Shown: positions 6,201-21,349 of the stretch, piece by piece
How the letters are laid out: the number at the start of each line of letters is the position of its first letter
How positions within the stretch are numbered: the first letter of the stretch is position 1
From: a virus
Direction: 5' to 3' (one strand)
DNA: 21,381 bases
IMG/VR virus record: IMGVR_UViG_3300032360_000058
Span: 1 to 21,381 of that record
Program-made: the position numbers and the translations under genes
Notes under the pieces: generated by a model
Told to the model about the DNA's origin: nothing
Databases searched by the model: none
What the model saw: only the letters and a program-made list of their open reading frames with translations

Positions 6201-9200
6201 AGATGATTTTATTATTTTAAATGAAGATGGAGATCGTACTTTTGGTGAAGATGTTGGAAGTGATCGTATTACAGCATATGATGGGGCAAATTCAATTATA
6301 TATTCTACTGGAACAATTACACAATCAGGTAATGTTGTTACAGGAATTTCTGGAGAAACAATTTTTCCTAATGAATTAATACGAGGAACTCTTACGTATG
6401 CTAATAATCTGACAACAACTATAACAGGACATACTAATGCTACATCAATCACAGTAGAAGATTCTCAAACTATAGGTTCGGCAGAAGTATATTCCATTTC
6501 ATATAACCCTGCAGCAACTTATGGTGATAATAGTAGTGTAACAGCTGTTGCAACTGGAACAGGTTTTAGAACAGTAATAGTAACAGAAGAAGCACATACA
6601 AAAACAAAAGCTAATAAAATTAAAATTGAAGGTGCTACTGATAAAATATTCAATGGAATTTTTCCTGCTTCTCCTATAGATTCTAATAGTTATAGTTATA
6701 CAATTTCGGAAGACTTTGACTCAGCGGTAATATCAGGAAGCCTTTCATCAAAATTTGTAAAGACAGCTTACTTAGATACTTCAAATGCTTCCCTTATGGA
6801 TACCTCATTAAAAGGTAACAATGCGGTAATAGAAGTTTCTAGTATTGCTGCAGGGTCAATTAAATCTGTGGCCATTGAAAATGTTGGAGCGGGATATTCA
6901 ACTAAACCAAAAGTTTTAGCTGGAGATGGAGATAATAACGCACAAATGACTGCTGTGATAGGAGCCTTTGCTCAATATCCTGGAAAATATTATGGTACAC
7001 AAGGAAGATTAGACGATGCTCCCAAAATACAAGATAGTAGATATTATCAAAGTTTTTCTTATGTTTTAAAAGCTCCCATTGATACTACAAAATACCGCGC
7101 ACATGTAGACCGGTTGGTACATCCAGCTGGTATGAAAATGTTTGGTGAGTTAGCAGTAATTCTTAAAGCCTCTGCTGAACTTTTTTCATCTGGATATCAT
7201 GCAGGAACAGAAGGACGAGACGGCCCCGGTAAGCCGAAGGACGTAGATAATTATGATGACTCAGGATTTGAATTCGGCCGCCCAGATTATTTACATCTTC
7301 ATACTCCCCGATTTCATCCTATTATTTTGACGCGTCAAGTACTCGTTAATGCAGAAATTCAAACAGATTTTCAGCCACATGTAGAAATTTATACACATGA
7401 TGTTCCTTATCATGCAATGGATGGAAGAATAGAGCATAGAGGTAATGTAGAAATAAAAAGAGAAGATTTTAGAGATGTTCAACAGATGATACGTTCATCT
7501 GCTTCTATGTTAACATATGTAATGGATGAATCTCAAGGAAATGATGAACAATATGAAATAGGTGAAACTGTATACCAAGGTACTTCATATTTTACTAGAG
7601 TTAGAGAAGCTACTGTAGCTGGATATAATCATGATTCCAAAACATTAAATCTTATTAATATGATTCCTAATATGGATTTCATATTAGATAAAAGTATTAT
7701 AGGTTATCTTGGAGGAGCAGATTATGCGATTCTTGAAAATGTTACATTACCTATGGCGGATATTACTGAGTTAGAACATAGTCATGAAACTGGTGATATA
7801 ATACAAATCACAAGAGCAACTACTGATTATTTTAATGGTGAATTTATAATTCAAACGGTTCCTGACACAAATACCTATACTGTCTTTTTAGGAAGAGGTG
7901 ATCCTGGCGAAGATGTTGAGGCGGTAGCACAAACTGCTTATGGTGGTAGTTGGTTAAAAGTAGAAACTAAAACATTAGCAAATGTTTGGAGAGTTAGTTC
8001 CCAAAATTATGAATCTCCTTTTGAAGGAACTATTACTCAAGAAGATGAACTTATCGATGGTGTAATTTATAATTATGCAATTACATTGGAAGAAGGAGAT
8101 ACCTATTTACTTCCGAAAATACAATTTCCTGAATATGATTCTGGAACAGTTTCCATTGACATGAGTTTCAGTAGTGATCTTCTATTGGAAGACCATATTA
8201 ATCCAGATACAGGATTACATGAAGATGGATATGTCTTGCATGAAGCACATGGTGGTACAGTAGGAATGGGTCCTACAAGATATATTTCCTTAGAAGATGA
8301 TACAGAAGGAATTGAATGGAGTTATGAACGAGGTCATCTTGGCCATGAACCTCTTAGTATTCCTTATATGGAAACTCAAGTAACTTTTGATGTATATGAG
8401 AATGCCGGATACAGTTTATTCTTGGAAGATGGTTCACATCTTATTGAAGAAGGTGATGAAACATCTAGACCACTATCTAGATTTATAACAGAGGATAGAC
8501 ATCCGGGCTTACATTCTACGGAAGCTGAACATGTTCTAAGACCGGTCGGTGAAATTGAATTTGAATTTAAAGAAAATTTCGGTTGGAACTTTTTGTTGCA
8601 AGATGGACACACACGTATAATTTCAGAAAATCCACACGAAACAGAATTATTTCTTACAGAGGAAGATTATTTTAGAACAGAATTTGGAGAAGTTGAATTT
8701 GATCTATATGATTCTGTAAATCAGAATTTACTGCTAGAAGATGATGTAACATTTTTTATAGAAGAAGGAGATGAAACTGCTAGTCCATTAGCAAGATTTG
8801 TAATACTTGATAACCATCCCGGTTTATTGGCTACTGAGTATGAGCATGGTAAGAGACCACTTGGAGAAGTAGAATTTGATTTATATGAAAAAGCAGGATA
8901 CAATCTAAAATTAGAAGATGATTCACATTTTATAGAAGAAGGTGATGAGGCTTCTAAATTGTCTCGATTTATATTAGAGAACAAAGAGCCGGGATCACAT
9001 TCTACTGAAGCTGAACATGTCTTAAGACCATTTGGAGATATTGAATTTGTATTTGATTTGGCACATCCCCCATTTGGTGCACCAGCTACTGAAGCTTTAA
9101 CTCCGCCGTCTATTTTAGGAGCACTTGAAGGTTGGATACAGTATGAAGATGGTTCGGATCTTGGTTTAGAAGACGGAGGAAATCTTACTTTAGATTCTGA

Positions 9201-11220
9201 CAAGTTACCAAGTGAAGGATCGCTTGATGAAGTTCAATTTAATCTTTATGAAAGTTTGTATGTATTATATACGTTAGAAGACGGTTCACATCTTATTGAA
9301 GAAGGTGATGAAACCTCACGACCGTTATCAAGATTTGTAATGGAAAGAGGCCCTGATATGTGGAATGCATACCCTCGGCCTGATGTTCAGATTGATGCTG
9401 AAGTACAAGTTGGTTGGAACTTTATGTTGGAAGATGAACATGGTCGTATAAGAAATGAAGGCCTTGAGTGGGGAACCGAAAATGGTTCATTATTACGTAC
9501 AGAAGCAATTTATGGAAATCGACAAAGAGAAGACAACTATCTATCCGTTCAAAATGTTATTTTTGAGCTAGCTCCAATAGAAGGAATGGCCGCCACTTTT
9601 AAAGATGAGTTACGTGAAATTGAAACGCATCATGTTATAGATCGTCCTTATTTCAATTGGCATATTATGACTGAAGATGATGATCATATTGTTTTTGAAG
9701 ATGCGGATCCAGATATAAATTGGGGACTCGGAACAAAAATGACTGTAGAAGGAATGCTTTATCCGAGAGCATTTTACAGAGGTTCTGATTTACTCATGAT
9801 AGATAAAGGTGGAATAACCGCTGATAATCCAATGCGTACTTATGAGTTGATGCAGGCAAAGGGACAGATTGTAGGTGGTGATTGGATGAACAGAATAGTA
9901 GGACAGCAGATTTTTGGTTGTCAAGTTGGACGGTGTCGAGGAGCTCGTGACAAATATTTAGATGGTGTAAACCACACAGGCGACCCTCTGCAGCGTGGTA
10001 GTCTAGGAAAATTTGGTGAAGATCGACAATTAGATGGTGATGCATATAGACAAAATTATGGTGAAGCCGGAAGTATAATTTCAGGACCCGGAAATAATAT
10101 GAATCATCCTCGCCGTATTGGATATTTTAATCAATATTGGGAATTAATGTCGATACATCATCCAATAATGTTGACAGGCCCCAATTGGTGGAAAGAAGCA
10201 AAAACACCTGTAACCATATATCCTACTCCGTTAGTTATGGAAGATGGAGAAGAAATACTTACAGAAGGTGGAGAAACTTTTCTTTTAACTGGGTGGGGAT
10301 CATCAATACATGTTGTTGCGACTCATTATTCTCCTAATGCGAATACAGCATTACAAGGAATATACGTTGCACAAGATACTAACCGACTTCTTCCACCACG
10401 AAATAGCACAATTTCAGCTGTACATCTTCAGCTTGAATCAGCAACTAGTGCAGAGGGACATTATTTTGAATTAGAAGAATTTCCTGGAAGAATTAACTTA
10501 AATTATAATGATATATCGATGAAGTCAGCACATTCCGCCTTTACTACATTCGCGGGAATGACTGGAATGATTGAGATGGTCGGAGGTAGTACAACCATAA
10601 CTGGAACAAATACTTTATTTACATCTCAACTTGTTACAAATGATTTAATTCAAACTCATGCCGAAAGTGTAATTGTAGAAGATGATGAGGGTATAGTTAT
10701 GGAATCTAATGATAGAATAGAACATGAAGATGTTACTCTTGACGGATTGATAGACTATAGCGATGATGCAACCTTAGGAGCATTAGACAACATTTCGCTG
10801 TCTGAAATTAGATGGTTTATTGCAACAGAAGAAACTCAAGGACATCACGGAAATTACCATGTTGGTACTGGTTGGGATCAAGAAGACAAAGTAGATGTTC
10901 CGGGCTCTTATTGGCTAGTTGGAGAGAATTCACTTTACGAACAAGAAATAGAATTAGAAATCAATACTCCGGATCCCGGAGGAGTAGGAAATAGAGTAGT
11001 AGCTAGTGAAACTGTTTGGTATCAAGAAAACTTAATTTGGGAAGACGGTACTAGAATATTATTAACACAAGCTGCTGAATATAGAGTAGAAGCAATTACG
11101 GATGATACGACCTTAACAATTCAAAGGCCGAGTTTTCAAGGAACTGATATAGTACCTTTCTTGAAAGTGGCGTCTGAAATAGAATCGCCAGCTTTAGTTT
11201 CTGGTTTACATTCTTTATAA
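3271..11220 (+). CDS. 7: Giant gp7-like baseplate wedge protein with acidic LEDG repeats
   Basis: This protein has 2649 residues; T4 gp7 has 1032. Three segments match the C-terminal half of T4 gp7 as I remember it. Residues 20-45 (LVPEFITADHPKMKIFIEKY) correspond to the T4 stretch with a hydrophobic cap and YYE-type helix. Residues 239-290 contain YRSKGGEASYDWLFRAIF, like T4 'STKGIEASYKFLFKVLY'. Residues 1273-1298 contain KYRAHVDRLVHPAGMKMFG, like T4 'RYRDDVIRFVHPVGFGF'. About 980 residues separate the last two, against roughly 100 in T4. This insertion holds GG-x-GY beta modules and three copies of a TYAN module. After residue 1300 comes a long extension with a tandem acidic repeat array (about 1704-2095), further LEDG blocks, and a disrupted FTSQL module at the end. 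The start codon abuts the gp6 stop, and upstream there is only weak ribosome-binding sequence, so translational coupling is likely. In T4, gp7 nucleates wedge assembly by binding gp10 and gp8. The extra domains are probably surface exposed. Confidence 0.85.
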   Translation: MAYEKKIKERQDVSSLIETLVPEFITADHPKMKIFIEKYYEFMESHQVYFEGIAFNEYKLVQEGEDDASIEPDYWIFEDEINNELMPDGDKNEHFDPRVLEGAIVNHRIQLETERDTTKDDELSFIIGETVYGNTTDAEAVVTGINGRTTAYLKPTTNTNFIYGEELTGVTSRAWTTFANGVLAGVFPDGSVEGFRTRGPIAATKELSEFADIDRTVEGLIDDSWKPEFYTHVPKQAATDRRMLLKQMKEVYRSKGGEASYDWLFRAIFASQEVDYYYPKDDMMRLSDGKWTKDKTVKILTDTANNIGIFEGREIRGHSSNATAIVEKTITKMVGAVQVTELFLSKITKGVGRDGTLGYFSKHERVESSPDANNEVGLGDCTGIISDVTIEYGGSNYVVGDVVQFIGGGGADARAEVVDTVDDILKGFRVVDSGDGYFVGDRLDFVDGGTGGEGAAATVGTIIPTGKAQKNDNTVQGGSTEQISSNNINKAIFSNSSFRFTAGIKENSGEVFDVSGPFFTSQFFQVGDLIRRQAKLDSTRVFTETGIGITLTQSGTTITLSGPITEEETKTVIGGKLTYANGNNTIIAGKGNTTTLYTKDIHTIGSGQDFNIYYADQTPGAPSATVVGANNDLVLYTLNSMHIDELGKKYITNFSNNDTVILYDTSRNVLWGPLNSNGSDAALTHTGFTFDIGNTPSNVEGIQVVIGDAFAEGGGYVQNQVNTTFNVAPVLTYTEHEFGAIETLAITNGGTGYKRLPIITVANNFMIGLSNSLEHTGDMNALLNVNLHSYSTGTVTQVGQVLTLSGGTFPDANSNPLHITYANGFEDYVVSVISSTSLEMETGTSVSAPESYTLTYGAIANNFAANEIIYTDNYESRGIVLDWFDEPGKQTYPRSVGTENEGTYVEKPGQTGYMRRNIVNGNTTLRVDMLTISDFTGVYSYFLEEGPPTASGYNDRLVFEDGSRIYPEDSITFMLMEDDFIILNEDGDRTFGEDVGSDRITAYDGANSIIYSTGTITQSGNVVTGISGETIFPNELIRGTLTYANNLTTTITGHTNATSITVEDSQTIGSAEVYSISYNPAATYGDNSSVTAVATGTGFRTVIVTEEAHTKTKANKIKIEGATDKIFNGIFPASPIDSNSYSYTISEDFDSAVISGSLSSKFVKTAYLDTSNASLMDTSLKGNNAVIEVSSIAAGSIKSVAIENVGAGYSTKPKVLAGDGDNNAQMTAVIGAFAQYPGKYYGTQGRLDDAPKIQDSRYYQSFSYVLKAPIDTTKYRAHVDRLVHPAGMKMFGELAVILKASAELFSSGYHAGTEGRDGPGKPKDVDNYDDSGFEFGRPDYLHLHTPRFHPIILTRQVLVNAEIQTDFQPHVEIYTHDVPYHAMDGRIEHRGNVEIKREDFRDVQQMIRSSASMLTYVMDESQGNDEQYEIGETVYQGTSYFTRVREATVAGYNHDSKTLNLINMIPNMDFILDKSIIGYLGGADYAILENVTLPMADITELEHSHETGDIIQITRATTDYFNGEFIIQTVPDTNTYTVFLGRGDPGEDVEAVAQTAYGGSWLKVETKTLANVWRVSSQNYESPFEGTITQEDELIDGVIYNYAITLEEGDTYLLPKIQFPEYDSGTVSIDMSFSSDLLLEDHINPDTGLHEDGYVLHEAHGGTVGMGPTRYISLEDDTEGIEWSYERGHLGHEPLSIPYMETQVTFDVYENAGYSLFLEDGSHLIEEGDETSRPLSRFITEDRHPGLHSTEAEHVLRPVGEIEFEFKENFGWNFLLQDGHTRIISENPHETELFLTEEDYFRTEFGEVEFDLYDSVNQNLLLEDDVTFFIEEGDETASPLARFVILDNHPGLLATEYEHGKRPLGEVEFDLYEKAGYNLKLEDDSHFIEEGDEASKLSRFILENKEPGSHSTEAEHVLRPFGDIEFVFDLAHPPFGAPATEALTPPSILGALEGWIQYEDGSDLGLEDGGNLTLDSDKLPSEGSLDEVQFNLYESLYVLYTLEDGSHLIEEGDETSRPLSRFVMERGPDMWNAYPRPDVQIDAEVQVGWNFMLEDEHGRIRNEGLEWGTENGSLLRTEAIYGNRQREDNYLSVQNVIFELAPIEGMAATFKDELREIETHHVIDRPYFNWHIMTEDDDHIVFEDADPDINWGLGTKMTVEGMLYPRAFYRGSDLLMIDKGGITADNPMRTYELMQAKGQIVGGDWMNRIVGQQIFGCQVGRCRGARDKYLDGVNHTGDPLQRGSLGKFGEDRQLDGDAYRQNYGEAGSIISGPGNNMNHPRRIGYFNQYWELMSIHHPIMLTGPNWWKEAKTPVTIYPTPLVMEDGEEILTEGGETFLLTGWGSSIHVVATHYSPNANTALQGIYVAQDTNRLLPPRNSTISAVHLQLESATSAEGHYFELEEFPGRINLNYNDISMKSAHSAFTTFAGMTGMIEMVGGSTTITGTNTLFTSQLVTNDLIQTHAESVIVEDDEGIVMESNDRIEHEDVTLDGLIDYSDDATLGALDNISLSEIRWFIATEETQGHHGNYHVGTGWDQEDKVDVPGSYWLVGENSLYEQEIELEINTPDPGGVGNRVVASETVWYQENLIWEDGTRILLTQAAEYRVEAITDDTTLTIQRPSFQGTDIVPFLKVASEIESPALVSGLHSL
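4906..5115 (+). repeat. TYAN module, copy A (within the gp7-like gene)
   Basis: Residues about 546-614 of the gp7-like protein. Order of elements: an LTQSGTTITLSG strand pair, a GGKLTYANGN strand, a turn, then TIGSGQDFNIYYA. The same order recurs at 5641-5840 and 6301-6510. This is a protein-level repeat; the DNA has diverged. Confidence 0.7.
5641..5840 (+). repeat. TYAN module, copy B (within the gp7-like gene)
   Basis: Residues about 791-857. It reads STGTVTQVGQVLTLSGG, then ITYANGFEDYVVSVISSTS, then SYTLTYG. It is aligned by the T-Q-x-G-x-x-x-T-x-S-G start, the TYANG centre and the Y-x-x-x-Y end. It is the most diverged of the three copies. Confidence 0.65.
6109..6270 (+). repeat. Isolated acidic LEDG-type block in the gp7-like gene
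   Basis: Residues about 947-1000 contain FEDGSRIYPEDS, LMEDDFII and LNEDGDRTFGED. These are short hydrophobic strands alternating with E-D-G or E-D-D turns, the same style as the large array at 8380-9555 but about 2 kb upstream of it. Confidence 0.6.
6301..6510 (+). repeat. TYAN module, copy C (within the gp7-like gene)
   Basis: Residues about 1011-1080. It reads STGTITQSGNVVTGISG, then GTLTYANNLTTTITG, then QTIGSAEVYSISYN. It shares TYAN, TIGS and the closing Y-x-I-x-Y with copy A, and the opening STGT-TQ with copy B. An acidic LEDG-type block lies immediately before it. Confidence 0.7.
8380..9555 (+). repeat. Tandem acidic LEDG repeat array in the gp7-like gene
   Basis: Seven consecutive units can be phased by a V/I-x-F-x-Y opening and a G-E/D closing. 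They begin at 8380, 8554, 8692, 8869, 9040, 9232 and 9385, with lengths of 58, 46, 59, 57, 64, 51 and 57 codons. The full unit holds a strand ending in LEDG or LEDD, an IEEGDET turn, an LSRF strand, then HPGLHSTEAEH-VLRP. Units 1, 3, 4 and 6 are the best conserved; 2, 5 and 7 are degenerate. The DNA is still similar in places: a 32-base run at 8431-8462 is identical to 9283-9314. A weaker unit may precede the array (8149-8379) and another may follow it (9556-9720). Confidence 0.85.
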
Positions 11221-13004: not shown

Positions 13005-16000
13005 ATGCCATTATCTACTAATTTTAATGTTACGCCGTATTATGATGATTATGATGAAGCCAAAGGATATTATCGCATACTTTTTAAGCCAGGTTATGGA
13101 ATCCAAGCGAGAGAGCTAACCCAATTACAAACTGCTTTACAAAAGCAAATTGAAAGGCTTGGCGCTCATAGTTTTAAAAATGGTAGTAAAGTTCTAGGTG
13201 GAGACATAACATTAGATACAGATGTTCATTCTCTTCAACTAGAAATGCAATATCTCGGCACTAATATAAATGCCGCGTCCTTTATAGGAAAAACTATTAT
13301 AGGTGAAACCTCTAATGCAAGAGGAAGGATTGTAGCGTCTCAGGCACCTACTAATCTTTTACAACCTATTTTAATGTTTCACTATTTAGGTGGTGATATT
13401 TTCGTTGACGGCGAAATAATACAAGATGAAGTTGTAGCTCCAGCTGAATCAGAAGTCTATGCAACAACTGTTAGTTTAGACGGCCCCTCCGCTATGTCTA
13501 ATGCTGTTGCAAACGGCTCTGTTGTTAGTATTGATAATGGCGTTTTCTTTCTTGATGGCCATTTTGTTCTTTGTGTCGCAAATACTCTAATTCTAGATAC
13601 TGCTAATACCGTACCTTCTGGTAGAATTGGATTAGAAATAGCAGAAACAGTTAAAACAAGTGATGATGATATGTCATTATTAGATCCAGCAGATGGATCT
13701 TTTAATTATGCTGCACCTGGTGCAACTCGACTTGATATTGAATTATCTTTGGTTAAAAAAGAACTTAACCTTGCCGATCCAATCGCAGCTGTTGCTGATC
13801 CAAATTTTATACAATTATTAAAAATTGTTGATGGAATTAAACATCAGGCAATTGAATATCCTATCTATACCGCAATTGAAAAAACTCTTACTAAAAAAGC
13901 ACATCAAAAATCAGGTGACTTTACTGTAACACCTTTTGACCTGAAATTGGAAGGAAATAGAGGACTATCAGGATTAACTGCAAATGCAGGTCTTGCTGGA
14001 ACAAGTGTATATGGAAATAATACACGGTTTACTACAGAATTGAATATAGGAGATAAAATTTATCTTGGTTCTAATGTTACAACAGCTGAAGTTAGTACAA
14101 TAGCAAATAATTCAAGATTAACAGTTACTTCTACACTTGATGCCGGAACAGAAGGATTAAAAATTTATAATGAATCTGAAATTCAAGCAGGAATAAGTTC
14201 AGGAAAAGCACAAATTGATGGTTATGAATATGAGAGTGTTTCTACTGAATTTCTTGATATTGACAAAGGACGAGATTTTGATATAGATTCTGGTTATAGT
14301 ATAGGAGCCGAAATAGGAAATTATGTTGTAATTGATAATATGAATAAATTTTTAGATGTAGGAACACACGAAATACTTCATTTACATAATGTAAAAGCTG
14401 CGAATATTAATGTAACAACTAATACAGAATATTTAGCAACCCAAACCGGTACCGCAAGAGTTCGTGGTTTAAAATGGGATTCCGTTTCAGGAAATACTGC
14501 ATATCCAGATTCCAATCATTCAAATTATAGAGCATATCTTTATGATATTGATACTTCAAATTCTGTAGCGGGTACGGTTGGTGCAGCGATTGCGAATACA
14601 ACCCATGTCAAATTAAATACCTCAGAGACTTCTTATGTAAATACTACTTATGTAGGGTCAACTATTACTGTTAATACTGTTAATGGTGTTGATAATACTA
14701 GTGATCTTAGATCAATAGATGAATATATTTCAAATTCTACAGGACATTGGGCTACTGTTAATACAGCTCTTTCTCAAGCGACTATTGCGAATAGTACTTA
14801 TGATGTATCATTTGATATTTCAGATACTAAATCCATAACGGTTGCAGAATATTCAATAGCTCTTCCAGGTGCTACTGCTACTATAAATTCTTATGCTGAT
14901 ATTGCAACCACAGGAAAAGTTGGTGGAGTTGATACTGGAAAATGTTTATTAAATGATTCAAATATAAATTCTTTAGTTTACTCTTTGCCACAAAGTCCCG
15001 TTAAAGCAACGGTGATAACGGCAAATACGGTAAACTATATGTTTAAACTAGTCCAAACAAATCTTACTTCTGATGCCGCAGGTAAATTTACAATAACTTT
15101 ATCAAATCCGGCTTACGAATTTCTTCCTACATCCGGAACATTAACTCATACTCAAGCACGAGAAGGATATATTGTAGTTGTTAAGGAAGCTGATGCAGGA
15201 GGAGCAACTACCGCACAAACATTTGTTAATGCAGTAGCATCAGGATCTTCTCTTCCGAATGCCGATGCGGCAATAGCAAGAGATTTAATTGATGGTGAAT
15301 GGTTAGACCTTGGAGCTATAGCCGATGATGCCGCTTCTATTAGACCCGTTGCTGTTTCTGGAGATAAACACACATTAGAAATACATTGTAATACTTCTTC
15401 TGCATTTACTGCAGATATTATATATTGTGCTTCAAGTTCTACAACAAGAAAAGAGCCGGGGCCCAGGACAAAATCTTTAGTATCAGGTAATGGTTCTCAT
15501 TTAGGTTCTTATGCCGCAGGACTTCCTGTAACAGATTTAAATAGTGGACAATTTTATTTCACAGCCCCCAATTTAACACAAACAGCTACAGATGAACTTG
15601 TTGTTTCAGACGCATTTAATTTAGTAAAAGTTGTTGATTCTGGAGTAGAATCTATTCCAGTAACAAATTCAATGATGACTTTATCTGCACATGATATTAC
15701 TCACATGTACGAATTTGATACAGGTCAAAGAGATGGTTTTTATGATCATGCAAATATTAAATTGAAAGCTGGTTATCCTGGCCCTTCAGGACAAATGGTA
15801 TGTGTAGTTGATTACTTTGAATGGGATGGAGCAGTGGGATATCATTCGGTAGATTCTTATCCTACAGCTGGACAATGGAATCAAAAAGATGATGCAAGCG
15901 CAAAAGTGTTTGATTATACAACAATACCTGAATTTACTAGTACTACATCGGGTGAAACATTTAAACTAAGAGACTGTATAGATTTAAGACCCCGAAGAGA

Positions 16001-19000
16001 AAATGAATCTAATGATTTTAGAGCAAATACTGCTGCACTTGAAGCAATACCAACCCCCATACCAAGTGGTACCTTGATTGGTGATGTACAGTATTATCTT
16101 CCCAGAGTAGATAAAATCACATTAACTAAAGATCGAAAATACAAAATTTTAAAAGGTACACCTTCATTAAATCCTGTGACTCCACCAGATGATGAAGATT
16201 CAATGACATTGTATTCATTGGAAGTTCCAGCATATACTTTTAGTCTTTCTGATGTCATTACACGATATGTTGATAATAAACCATTTTCTATGCGTGATAT
16301 TGGAAAATTGGAGAAACGAATTGAAAGATTGGAATATTGTACCTCATTATCTTTATTAGAAAAAGAAACTGCAGCAAGGAGTTTTTCTACTAGTCAAGGA
16401 ATTGCATTTAAAAATGGAATATTAATAGATTCATTTAGTGGTCATTCTGTTGGAGATGTTTTAAATGATGATTATAATATTTCAATAGAATATGCGTCTA
16501 AGGAAATGAGACCAGGATATTATTATGATAATCATAAATTTACGTATGATATATCATATAGTAATAACGTGACAAAAACTGGAGATTTAATTACTCTTCC
16601 TTATAGTGATGTAGATTTTATACAACAACCTATGTCTAGTAATACCGTTGTGGCAAATCCTTTTAATATTGTTACCTTTGTAGGAAATTTAAAAACATAT
16701 CCATCATCAGATGTTTGGTTTTCTCAAAATGCTAGACCCGAGATTGTAACAAATTTAGAAGGACAACATGATAATTGGAAATTAAGTGAAGGAAGAAAAG
16801 GTTTTGGTTCACAATTCAATGATTGGGAGACAAATTGGAAAGGTATAGAAAAAACTGAATCTCCTGTTCTAGGAACAGAGTCTAGAGGAAAGACTTATGA
16901 AGAAAAAAGGATGACCGCAGAATTAGATGATTCTAAAACACGAATAGGTATACAACCTACACCACCAGATGCTATTCTTAAAACTGTAGGAAAGAAAGTT
17001 GTTGATACTACAGTTAGACCTTATATAAATGGACAAAGAATACAATTTATGGCAAAAGGATTACGTCCTCTTACAAATGTATATGCATTTTTTGGTTCAA
17101 CTAATGTTGGAGTAGGTACGCGACCTGCAACATCACTCCTTCTAGGAAGTATAGATGGTGCATTTGAAGTAGGGGAAACACTTGTTGATACAGCAAATAA
17201 TCATTGTACAGTTTTAATGACAACAGATGTTGTTGATAATGTAGCTACAGTTTTGATTTCTAATGTATCAGGTAACGTATCTTCTACTACAGCAAGTCCT
17301 TATGGTGCAGCAAATGGAATGACTATTGGACTAAGAGAAATAATGGAGGATGATATTGGAGATGTAACTCACGTATTTGCTACAGGAAATACGATTACGG
17401 GTGGGATAAGTGCAGCGACTGCAACTATTACTCTTGCTTCAAAATATTCTCTTGGTGCAGCTAATGGTATTATGAGAACGGATAAAAATGGACAGATGGC
17501 TGGAGAAGTATTCTTAAATGATGGTGTATTTAGAACAGGAGATAATCTTCTTAGAATTACAGATAGTAGTTTAGACAATGTTGCAGCTACTGTCGCAGTA
17601 GCTGAAACAAAATGGCCAGCTAAAGGGGTATTAGATTCTCATTCAGCAGAATATGTTTCTACAAGAGAGGCAATCATTCGTAGAGAAACAGCAAATGAAG
17701 AAAAACTTTTCACCGATACTACTGTTCGAGAAACAGAAAAAACGAATTGGTTAAATCCCATAGCACAAACATTTTTTGTAGATCCACAGAATTTTCCAAA
17801 AGGATTATTTATAAGAAGCGTTGATTTATTTTTCGCTGCAAAAGACATATATTTACCTGTAACTGTACAAGTACGACCGGTTGTTAATGGATTTCCAAGT
17901 TCTTCTAAAATATTACCATTTAGTGAAGTAACCTTAACTCCAGAATTTGTTAATATTAATGCAATAGCAAATTCAGCAGATTCTTTGACTTATACAACAT
18001 TTACATTTGAATCTCCAGTTTATTTGGCACCAAATGAGTATTCTCTTGTAATAGGAACAAATAGTACAGATTACAAATTACACTTAGCGGAAGAAGGTTT
18101 TACTGCAATTGGAACAGATGATACTAAAATTTCTAAACCGAGTTTTATAGGTTCACTTTATAGACCACAAAATTCAGGATGGTGGGGAACTAATCTAGAT
18201 GAATATTTAACATTTAGGATGAAGCGTGCAGATTTTACAATAGGTACTGGTGGAAATACTAATTTCGCAAAAATGATTGTACATTGTAATGGTGCTTATG
18301 GAAATACAGCAAATGTAGAAATGGATTATTTTAATGTTGGTACTTCAACATTAGATTTTAGTGATACAGAATCAACTTGGAAATACGTTGCTTCTAATAA
18401 TTCTTTTACTATGAACGATGTTCTAGAAGCTACTGCAACTTGGACTGAATTTACTCCTAATAAAAATCATAAATTGATAGACAGAAAGAGACTTGTTGCT
18501 ACCTCTAATGGTACATTTAGAGTAAGAACGGAAATGATATCAGCAAATTCTCATGTTTCTCCTACAGTAGACCTTGATAGATTAAATGTAACTTCTGTAC
18601 ATAATATCATTGATAATGGAGAGTTATCAAATGAAGATATAACAGTAATGACTCGAGGATCAGGATACGAAAATGTAGAACCACAATTTGTTACTGCAGT
18701 ATTGAGTGGTGGTGGAACGGAAGATGTTGCTTCATTAAATGTACATGTTTCTGTATCAATGAATGTAAATTCAAATTCAACTACAGTATCTAGTGGAAAT
18801 ACTTCATATACTGTTGATGCTGGAAATCCCGGACAATTTATTGTGGGTGAAGCAGTAATGGCGAATACGGCAGCAGATGTTAATGCAAATAATAGTGGTA
18901 TCTACGGAGTTATAGATTCTATAACATATTTAGATGGAGATTCTGGAGCAAATACTGCTACTGTTACTATTAAAACGAGTGCGAATAATCAAGGAGTTTT

Positions 19001-19866: not shown

Positions 19867-20732
19867 CTGCAAATGTTGAACTAACGGACACTTTTGGAGC
19901 TTTTAGAACTAAAAGTAATGAACTTGTAGCAATGACTCATGATGGAATGAATAACTTCATCAAGGTATTGGATACTACAGATTCAACAAGTAATGTTACT
20001 GGTTCGATTATTACTGCAGGAGGTATTGGAGTAGCTGGAAGTGGAACTATCGGTGGAAATCTTAATGTTCATGGAAATCTTCATGCAAATGGAAATATCA
20101 CTTCAGATGGAAGTCTAACTTTTGGTGATGCTGATACAGACAATGTTATATTTGGCGCTGATGTAAATTCACATATAATACCAAATACAGATGATACTTA
20201 TGATTTAGGTTCAACTACACAAAGGTGGAAAGATTTATATGTAGATGGTACTGCTTATGTTGATGATGCAGTTCTTGATGGCACTACGATTACTGCATCC
20301 GGTGACCAAATTAATTATAATAATATTACCACATTAGGAACAGCAGAAGTAAGTAAGACTGTTACAAGTGATGCGTCCGGTAATGTTACTTTTGTAGATG
20401 GTACAAATAATATTGATATAGCTTCTCATGATGGTACAAACGGATTAAAACTAGGTGGAACATTAGTAACTTCATCTGCTACAGAACTTAATTACAATAA
20501 TATTACCACATTAGGAACAGCAGAAGTAAGTAAGACTGTTACAAGTGATGGAGCTGGTAATGTTACTTTTGTAAACAGCACAAATGATATCGACATTGCA
20601 TCACATGATGGTACAAATGGATTAAAACTGGGTGGAACACTAGTTACAAAAACAGCTGCTCAGATTAACTCTGCCGCAACAGATGAATCGGCAACAGCTG
20701 TTGCCGTTTCAATGGCAATAGCATTAGGATAA
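19863..20732 (+). CDS. Tail fibre-like protein with two 59-residue repeats
   Basis: This 289-residue, Gly/Thr/Asn/Asp-rich beta protein has no cysteine. Residues 44-100 form a collagen-like or beta-helix-like run of alternating short strands (GGIGVAGSGTIGGNLNVHGN). A YDLGSTTQRWKDLYVDGTAY motif (113-132) is a hallmark of marine phage fibre proteins. Two near-identical 59-residue repeats begin at residues 150 and 209. Each runs from LNYNNITTLGTAEVSKTV through a VTF-DGTN strand to ASHDGTNGLKLGGTLVT. The C-terminus (267-289) ends in AVAVSMAIALG and is shared with the next gene. No intramolecular chaperone (S74-type) domain follows, which is unusual for a fibre carrying the RWKDLY motif. The start overlaps the stop of the preceding coiled-coil gene. 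A virion fibre role is inferred from composition, repeats and context; the receptor is unknown. Confidence 0.82.
   Translation: MTANVELTDTFGAFRTKSNELVAMTHDGMNNFIKVLDTTDSTSNVTGSIITAGGIGVAGSGTIGGNLNVHGNLHANGNITSDGSLTFGDADTDNVIFGADVNSHIIPNTDDTYDLGSTTQRWKDLYVDGTAYVDDAVLDGTTITASGDQINYNNITTLGTAEVSKTVTSDASGNVTFVDGTNNIDIASHDGTNGLKLGGTLVTSSATELNYNNITTLGTAEVSKTVTSDGAGNVTFVNSTNDIDIASHDGTNGLKLGGTLVTKTAAQINSAATDESATAVAVSMAIALG
20311..20373 (+). repeat. Direct repeat in fibre gene, copy 1 (177-base period)
   Basis: This 63-base segment recurs at 20488-20550 with a single mismatch (base 20318 against 20495). The offset is 177 bases, exactly 59 codons. It encodes the NYNNITTLGTAEVSKTVTSD part of the protein repeat. 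Near-identity at synonymous sites points to recent duplication or ongoing recombination. Confidence 0.9.
20488..20550 (+). repeat. Direct repeat in fibre gene, copy 2 (177-base period)
   Basis: Second copy of the segment at 20311-20373. Downstream of it the two units diverge at the DNA level while the protein pattern (VTF strand, ASHDGTNGLKLGGTLVT) is kept. Confidence 0.9.
20608..20732 (+). repeat. Duplicated fibre C-terminal module, copy 1
   Basis: This is the last 125 bases of the 289-residue fibre gene, including its stop codon. It matches 20878-21002 at an offset of 270 bases (90 codons). Identity is highest at the two ends: bases 20618-20646 and the final 33 or so bases are identical, with scattered changes between. 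Confidence 0.88.
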
Positions 20733-20748
20733 TTTCGTTTAAAAGAAA

Positions 20749-20756
20749 TATAAATA
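20749..20756 (+). promoter_or_regulatory. T4-type late promoter (TATAAATA) within the fibre cassette
   Basis: A perfect TATAAATA in the 39-base gap between the 289-residue fibre gene and the 76-residue gene, 15 bases before the ATG at 20772. By analogy with T4 late promoters, the transcript should start only a few bases before the start codon, leaving a very short leader. It lies between the two copies of the duplicated C-terminal module and would give the last genes of the cassette their own late transcript. Confidence 0.7.
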
Positions 20757-20771
20757 TAGGTACAACAACTT

Positions 20772-21002
20772 ATGTCACAAGCAAGAAATATCGCTAATTT
20801 TGGTGTACATACAACTACTCCTGATGGTGCAGTGACATTCCTAGATGGTGCAACGGATGTAGATATTGCTCAACACGATGGTACAAACGGATTAAAACTG
20901 GGTGGAACACTAGTTACAAAAACTGCCGCCGAAATTAATACTGCAGCAACAAATGAGGAAGCGACAGCAGTTGCCGTTTCAATGGCAATAGCATTAGGAT
21001 AA
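20772..21002 (+). CDS. Minimal fibre-like protein, duplicate of the upstream fibre C-terminus
   Basis: This protein has 76 residues. The first 16 or so (MSQARNIANFGVHTTT) resemble the 'ARDIAN'-type N-termini of marine phage fibre proteins. From residue 18 it follows the repeat pattern of the upstream fibre: GAVTFLDGATDVDIAQHDG, then TNGLKLGGTLVTKTAA and the shared end AVAVSMAIALG. The coding frame equals that of the upstream gene, but the gap between them holds further in-frame stops (TAA and TAG), so the two are separate genes. The ribosome binding site is weak (AGGT, 10 bases upstream of the ATG), with the late promoter directly before it. It could be a functional short fibre-tip protein or a recently formed product of recombination. 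An intact frame, start, promoter and stop favour a working gene. Confidence 0.75.
   Translation: MSQARNIANFGVHTTTPDGAVTFLDGATDVDIAQHDGTNGLKLGGTLVTKTAAEINTAATNEEATAVAVSMAIALG
20878..21002 (+). repeat. Duplicated fibre C-terminal module, copy 2
   Basis: Second copy of the 125-base module at 20608-20732, forming the last 41 codons and stop of the 76-residue gene. A third, shorter and more diverged relative of its first part (the HDGTNGLKLGGTLVT coding segment) lies at about 20428-20471. Confidence 0.88.
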
Positions 21003-21016
21003 TAAAGGATTAAAAA

Positions 21017-21349
21017 ATGGCAAATTCATTTAAAAGAAAAAAGACAGCGGGAATTGGAACTAGTTTTGCATTGATAGACAGTTATACTGTTGCTGGATCG
21101 ACAGAAGTTACTGTAATTGGATTAACTATAGCAAATGTTACATCCAGTCCTATTTTAGCTGATGTATCATTACATGATGGTTCCAATTATTTCTCTGTCG
21201 TAAAAGAAGCTCCTATTCCAAGTGGTGGGTCATTAGTTGTTGTCGGAGGAGATCAAAAACTTGTAATGGAAACAGGTGATAGTATGCAAGTTAAATCTGA
21301 TACCGCATCATCTATAGATGCAATAATGAGTATTTTGGAGATAACATAA
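21017..21349 (+). CDS. Small conserved beta-rich virion protein of marine phages
   Basis: This 110-residue protein has a basic start (MANSFKRKKTAGIGTSFALI) and then alternating short beta strands. Recognisable segments are STEVTVIGLTIANVTSSPI at about 28-46, APIPSGGSLVVVGGDQKLVM at 65-84, and a GDSMQVKSDTASSIDAIMSI segment leading to a LEIT end. I have seen this type of small protein in fibre regions of many marine phages, without an established function. The single compact beta domain suggests a fibre-associated or decoration protein, which is an inference. The ribosome binding site AAAGGA at 21004-21009 lies seven bases before the ATG and close after the stop of the previous gene, so it should be cotranscribed from the late promoter at 20749. 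There is no signal peptide or membrane segment. Confidence 0.82.
   Translation: MANSFKRKKTAGIGTSFALIDSYTVAGSTEVTVIGLTIANVTSSPILADVSLHDGSNYFSVVKEAPIPSGGSLVVVGGDQKLVMETGDSMQVKSDTASSIDAIMSILEIT

Follow-up and report, generated by a model that had tools for sequence, protein, structure and literature searches.

A C-terminal end shared by two neighbouring fibre-like genes of a T4-like phage is a candidate docking tag matched to a downstream beta-sandwich protein

In a 21,381-nt stretch of viral DNA (IMG/VR record IMGVR_UViG_3300032360_000058, positions 1 to 21,381; here called the window), we found that a 289-aa fibre-like protein and a 76-aa protein encoded just downstream of it have a common C-terminal end (ATAVAVSMAIALG). 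The end behaves as a tag that occurs on unrelated fibres and is almost always followed by the gene for one small partner protein, and the 76-residue gene is thus probably a second, minimal carrier. The explanation we favour, and hold to be somewhat better than an even bet, is that the duplicated end is a C-terminal docking or assembly tag for the downstream beta-sandwich protein, that the 76-aa protein is a minimal second carrier of it, and that gene conversion or selection matches the tags.

The window contains the baseplate and fibre cluster of a T4-like marine phage (gp25, gp6, a gp7-like gene, gp8, a DUF4815 protein and a 74-aa virion protein). Homologues of gp25, gp6 and gp8 are found in order upstream (PF04965, PF21379, PF09215, phrog_219, phrog_261), as in a T4-like (Kyanoviridae-like) myovirus, and the window is syntenic with Methylophilales phage Melnitz (Kyanoviridae), where a short relative of the 289-aa fibre occupies the same place. 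The original prediction that the fibre gene's final 125 nt are repeated, 270 nt further on, as the end of a 76-residue gene was confirmed: positions 20608-20732 and 20878-21002 are identical at 109 of 125 nt (87%, not exact, with longest exact runs of 35 and 33 nt), the spacing is exactly 270 nt, and both open reading frames are as described. A repeat finder extended the pair to 229 nt at 73% identity (20540-20768 and 20810-21038), far above chance, and it also detected a 177-nt (59-codon) tandem repeat within the fibre gene (20292-20468 and 20469-20645). The 76-aa protein corresponds approximately to the last 59-codon unit of the fibre with about 17 new N-terminal residues. NCBIfam also gave a sub-threshold match between the fibre and AcrF10 (E=2e-4); it lies inside the repeats and was judged spurious. 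The features of the locus are collected in Table 1.

Table 1. Features of the duplicated fibre end and its surroundings, in window coordinates.
Feature	Position	Strand	Basis
289-aa fibre-like gene, first tag carrier; N-terminus MTANVELTDTFGAFRTKSNELVAMT, also in relatives L001, L003, L004 and L005	19863..20732	+	ORF list; relatives L001, L003, L004, L005
Two tandem 177-nt (59-codon) repeats in fibre	20292..20645	+	repeat finder; one copy fewer in L001/L002
Tail copy 1, last 42 fibre codons and stop	20604..20732	+	copy alignment
Fibre C-terminal tag AVAVSMAIALG, type A	20697..20729	+	tag comparison with relatives and IMG/VR matches
Spacer with late-promoter-like box	20733..20771	+	alignment with relatives
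TATAAATA, putative T4-type late promoter box, 15 nt from ATG	20749..20756	+	motif count
76-aa small gene, second carrier: 17-aa own N-terminus, one fibre repeat remnant, tag	20772..21002	+	ORF list
Tail copy 2, last 43 small-gene codons and stop	20871..21002	+	copy alignment
Small-protein C-terminal tag AVAVSMAIALG, type A	20967..20999	+	tag comparison with relatives and IMG/VR matches
110-aa partner, type A, MANSFKRK..., predicted beta-sandwich	21017..21349	+	homologues annotated 'virion structural protein'

Between the two copies of the end there are, as had been proposed, a box resembling a late promoter, a new start codon and a short ARNIAN-type N-terminus (MSQARNIANFGVHTTT). The box, TATAAATA, occurs four times on the two strands of the window, which is not above chance (mean 4.5). 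Both copies on the + strand are intergenic, though the intergenic share of the window is 1.3%, and in phage Melnitz 4/4 copies are intergenic; the copy before the 76-aa gene is thus likely a T4-type late promoter. No clear Shine-Dalgarno sequence was seen in the 15 nt between this box and the ATG of the 76-aa gene. The spacer is identical at 38/39 positions in L001 and in L003, whose backbone is 96% identical to the window anyway, and it is missing from L004 and L005. Within the spacer (20733-20760) we also observed TTCGTTTAAAAGAAA, which recurs in the first codons of the 110-aa gene of L001 and L005 (the window has TTCATTTAAAAGAAA at 21020-21038) and is a probable remnant of an older copy of the start of that gene.

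The 76-aa gene was predicted to encode a minimal fibre-like protein that shares the tip of its neighbour, and this reading stands in part: it is a real gene with the common C-terminus, whereas the end is not a private or host-specific tip and instead appears to be a generic tag tied to the downstream gene. The small gene is present in L001/L002, in L003 and, with 76% identical residues, in L004, which is more distant, and is known from only four contigs besides the window, all close or moderately close relatives; QARNIAN-type starts were found only in these same four contigs. When codons 1-49 of the window and L004 are compared, there are 14 synonymous and 5 nonsynonymous differences (dN/dS ~0.1, Fisher 2e-6), which points to strong purifying selection, and we therefore rejected the idea that the 76-aa protein is recombination debris. 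L005 is without the gene. We found no whole-length homologues of the 76-aa protein in cultured phages or in the genome contigs searched.

To define the tag, we scanned IMG/VR with degenerate DNA for MAIALG followed by a stop codon (type A; at least 120 contigs) and for GKAIAMA (type B, of the form [ST]GKAIAMA[ILM][VI]FG). Among the matches listed, 121/121 for type A are C-termini of open frames, on bodies whose lengths span about 60 to 1326 aa and whose N-termini differ greatly, and 117 of the 119 type B matches are also C-termini. Lax single-linkage clustering left at least 15 unrelated bodies for type A and 14 for type B. Since the tag codons are diverse, the peptide and not the DNA is conserved, and conservation at the DNA level is unsupported. 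The end could also be conserved for translation, with its last codons (..TTAGGATAA..) serving as the Shine-Dalgarno sequence of the next gene. The final Gly codon is often GGA and the gap after type A tags is often only 3 nt, but the preceding residues are conserved with varied codons, the gaps reach tens of nt, the Gly codons GGT and GGC also occur and the type of ending tracks the partner subfamily; we regard this explanation as extremely improbable.

The last ~10 residues of the tag alternate between small and bulky hydrophobic side chains (A-V-A-M-A-I-A-L-G), a pattern that may resemble an edge beta strand. Frames of at most 90 aa make up 24/116 type A carriers, about a fifth, among the matches listed, and small carriers like the 76-aa protein are thus a recurrent form. 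In three cultured phages, S-TIM5 (81 aa), RHph_Y65 (76 aa) and S-BM3 (82 aa), the gene immediately upstream of the partner gene is a small tag carrier; the larger gene that precedes this carrier lacks a tag in S-TIM5 and RHph_Y65.

The distal end of a fibre is usually its receptor-binding end, and the shared end was originally proposed to be a tip, with the two proteins able either to compete for one virion site or to assemble there together. That two fibres carry one receptor-binding tip is very unlikely, in our judgement. The common C-terminus is real, but its last residues hardly vary among phages that infect SAR11, cyanobacteria, Rhizobium, Methylophilales and Yersinia, unlike those of a host-specific tip. 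Competition for one site is not indicated either, since the two N-termini, the usual determinants of the attachment site, differ. A hypervariable host-range tip was likewise rejected, as the end is the most widely shared part. Judging from these comparisons, what the two genes have in common is a generic tag, present at the C-terminus of many unrelated fibre-like bodies of aquatic phages, and the fibre and the 76-aa protein plausibly share a partner protein at their C-terminal ends.

Tags and partner genes are linked in both directions, in contig samples that are pattern-based and phylogenetically redundant, so that the counts that follow are not independent events. In 98/120 cases among the matches listed, a type A tag is followed by a gene of the ~110-aa family of the window, as compared to 1/102 for the upstream neighbours of type A tag genes (Fisher test versus downstream, 7e-40). 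After type B tags, nearly all of the next genes encode MA[AN]PNIVNV proteins of ~120-130 aa that are homologous to the type A partners (hhalign, 98%). For each partner of a 60%-nonredundant set we took the nearest relative, and this relative follows the same tag type in 86 of the 87 cases with a relative (Fisher 9e-23). In the converse sample, where loci were fetched by the 110-aa protein of the window alone, the readable upstream genes end in [AS]IALG in 77/77 cases (one, L538, read by eye). A third partner subfamily (MAIPSGSGTEVLK...), homologous to the others and also found in L002, follows a third kind of ending (QSSTHQALxLGG, THHALAL or STGKxxVxGF) in about 34/35 loci. In cultured phages, the gene before the partner has a tag-like ending at 18/18 loci in 17 phages; most have IALG, Lederberg and HMO-2011 have AIAL with the final Gly missing, VALG and IVFG occur once each, and type B tags precede the partner in HTVC033P and DSL-LC04.

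The linkage could come partly from joint inheritance of adjacent genes, and a fibre tag that has an intervening gene between it and the partner argues against this only in two lineages. In the window, the small tag gene is directly followed by the gene of the partner family, the fibre before it has the same tag, and both tags and the partner are of type A. L004 has a different type at both ends (...TTGKxIAMSIVFGG), and its two carriers and its partner are all of type B. The match of both L004 carriers despite the gene between fibre and partner suggests that matching is needed and not only inherited.

Further tag and partner genes were observed elsewhere in these genomes. L002 (8573-8929 and 8979-9326) and L004 (2722-2925 and 2969-3319) each have a second pair, of the third type, with a tag gene that ends in THQGLFL or THHALAL and a MAIPSGSGTEVLKV... 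partner; one phage can thus carry two different tag-partner pairs. In phage Melnitz (L226:11782-12671 and 15308-16292), two genes end in a tag and a separate partner gene comes after each of them; TATAAATA lies between the two genes of the first pair. In L006 (2295-6489) and L009 (1461-6483), three adjacent fibre genes have a common N-terminal motif, SDTFDQWRxKxNEW, which is likely an anchor, and a type B-like tag, while their middles differ. L009 also has three tandem paralogues of about 185-204 aa (7717-9409) with the common ending QEIQTY, another family with shared C-termini.

The partner belongs to phrog_26609 and phrog_1276, which PHROGs lists as function unknown. No Pfam or NCBIfam family was found for the partner or its relatives, except for a weak stray PF07880 match in 1/51 relatives; these libraries gave no gp38 or Tfa family-model match, and the PDB gave no sequence match for the type A or the type B partner. 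AlphaFold2 predicts a nearly all-beta sandwich with most of the domain at pLDDT >90 (type B was modelled too). In Foldseek searches this fold recurs in many proteins of phages, several of which are named virion structural protein, whereas against the PDB there were only weak jelly-roll-like matches, one of them to a phage fibre that ends in a jelly roll. Homologues are annotated as virion structural protein in many phages, among them Microcystis phage MaMV-DC and S-TIM5; the homologue in S-SCSM1, a phage whose virion proteome was measured (PMC9602691), goes by the name 'Virion protein'. In AlphaFold2 monomer models of two tag-partner read-through fusions (stop read as Q), which allow no trimeric interface, no docking of the tag was seen and its pLDDT was ~57-60.

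The partner might instead be a trimerisation chaperone that recognises the tag in the manner of Tfa or T4 gp38 and stays outside the finished fibre, with the small protein as a second client or titrator. The gene order is the same as in fibre-chaperone pairs, and in the gp24-gp25 complex of Pam3 the chaperone sits on the fibre's distal end but does not occur in virions (PMC9608196). Set against this are the structural annotations of the homologues in many phages, S-TIM5, MaMV-DC and S-SCSM1 among them, and the partner has no match to chaperone families. We consider the chaperone role unlikely, at perhaps one chance in a handful.

Close relatives of the window indicate how the ends change. The upstream backbone of L001/L002 and L003 is ~96% identical to the window, and the stretch from the spacer through codon 33 of the small gene remains at this level (97%); identity is lower in the tails (84-94%) and in the 110-aa gene (82-85%). 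In L001, a private GAC is common to the fibre and the small gene, and in L003 a private GCCGGG is common to both; the L001 fibre tail is a chimera of which one half is fibre-like and the other small-gene-like. The fibre and small-gene tails of L004 pair at 100% bootstrap, while those of L003 pair at only 58%. L005 has no small gene, and its fibre is followed by the 110-aa gene via the spacer TAATAAAGGATTAAAAAATGG, the same as after the small gene of the window, as a tail-to-tail crossover would leave. Comparison of the locus in relatives for copy number and exchange of ends thus agrees with the suggestion that the two ends recombine: they share private variants in L001 and in L003, both were replaced together in L004, and L005 lacks the small gene and has the joint just described. 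Separately, the fibre body at 20101-20300 is 72-75% identical to L001 and L003 beside ~96% upstream, with a sharp boundary near 20100, and by this measure is a replaced segment.

These exchanges also bear on whether the end is only a modular recombination junction, with tag and partner as an exchange cassette and the 76-aa gene as a passenger of unequal crossing-over. The mosaic tails among 96%-identical phages, the variable repeat copy number (one 177-nt unit fewer in L001) and the resemblance of L005 to a tail-to-tail joining product all favour such a junction. It does not account for a tag that is kept as amino acids with diverse codons, a small gene under purifying selection, similar small tag genes in unrelated cultured phages, or a non-adjacent fibre tag that also matches the partner type in L004, and we regard it as quite unlikely. 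The docking tag remains the reading that we prefer.

If the docking tag is real, the last ~10 residues would act like one edge strand of a beta sheet, and the ~110-aa beta-sandwich protein would recognise them and cap, fold or form the distal end of any carrier, having been acquired there as a structural cap, adhesin or chaperone. The phage of the window would then have two carriers, the 289-aa fibre and the 76-aa protein, the latter consisting of little except an anchor at its N-terminus, the remnant of one repeat and the tag itself. The small gene may have been born when the fibre end was duplicated onto a new N-terminus beside a late promoter, and gene conversion or selection would hold both tags to the type of the partner. 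The 76-aa protein might display the partner at a second mounting site, or be a spare adaptor or a titrator.

The arrangement resembles several known systems. In T-even phages, the adhesin or chaperone gp38 is encoded downstream of gp37 (T2, S16; T4 gp38) and acts at the C-terminal end of the fibre (PMC9608196). Here too, a fibre gene is followed by the gene for a protein that would act at the C-terminal end, and fibre ends are exchanged modularly. The partner gene lies directly downstream of the tagged gene in the counts given above, and in the window it follows the small gene. Binding of the partner to the C-terminal end would fit the linkage and the matched types, while the AlphaFold2 monomer fusions showed no docking. 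In contrast to gp38, the partner falls in no gp38 family model and is predicted to be a ~110-aa beta-sandwich, and the recognition element is apparently a ~10-residue tag that is found on many unrelated bodies and, here, on two neighbouring genes. Tfa-type tail fibre assembly proteins (Mu Tfa and cyanophage Pam3 gp25; PMC9608196) and the Alteromonas phage chaperones V22 gp27 and A5 gp9 (PMC10579305) are encoded beside the fibre and act at its distal end; the partner gene of a tagged fibre is similarly placed, as its action may be. Pam3 gp25 is not present in virions and combines a beta-sandwich with a helical domain at its C-terminus; the partner, in contrast, has one domain that is nearly all-beta in prediction, with neither a Tfa family match nor a helical C-terminal domain. 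Unlike V22 gp27 and A5 gp9, which resemble intramolecular chaperones, its homologues are annotated as structural. The long tail fibre of Agrobacterium phage 7-7-1 (PDB 9rkv) ends in a triple jelly roll (PMC12796354) that has a weak fold match to the partner, but there the jelly roll is within the fibre chain and here the protein would be separate.

Duplication of a fibre-end segment has a precedent as well. Tetart et al. reportedly described in 1996 that duplication of a small domain in the T4 tail-fibre adhesin expands host range. There as here a fibre-end segment was duplicated and recombined; here, in contrast, a separate gene was made, and the end is a generic tag, not a receptor-specific box. 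We did not find, in the tools and open-access literature searched, a description of a short tag that many unrelated fibres share and that comes in three or more types, each matched to a subfamily of the same small protein. The strings MAIALG and AIALG likewise gave no phage paper on the motif in open-access text, which is weak evidence of novelty, as motifs are rarely printed.

Taken together, these data raise a broader possibility, to which we give about even chances: that aquatic tailed phages use distinct tags (IALG, GKAIAMAxVFG, THQALxLGG), each matched to a beta-sandwich subfamily, to plug an interchangeable distal protein onto unrelated fibres and minimal carriers, with neighbouring tags evolving in concert. 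If this is true, one short peptide rule would identify the fibre ends, and the protein on them, in a large share of marine phages (those of SAR11, cyanobacteria, roseobacters and methylotrophs), where such genes are mostly annotated as hypothetical or structural. It would also offer a directly testable tag-partner interface, and would account for the free exchange of fibre bodies with retention of the distal protein.
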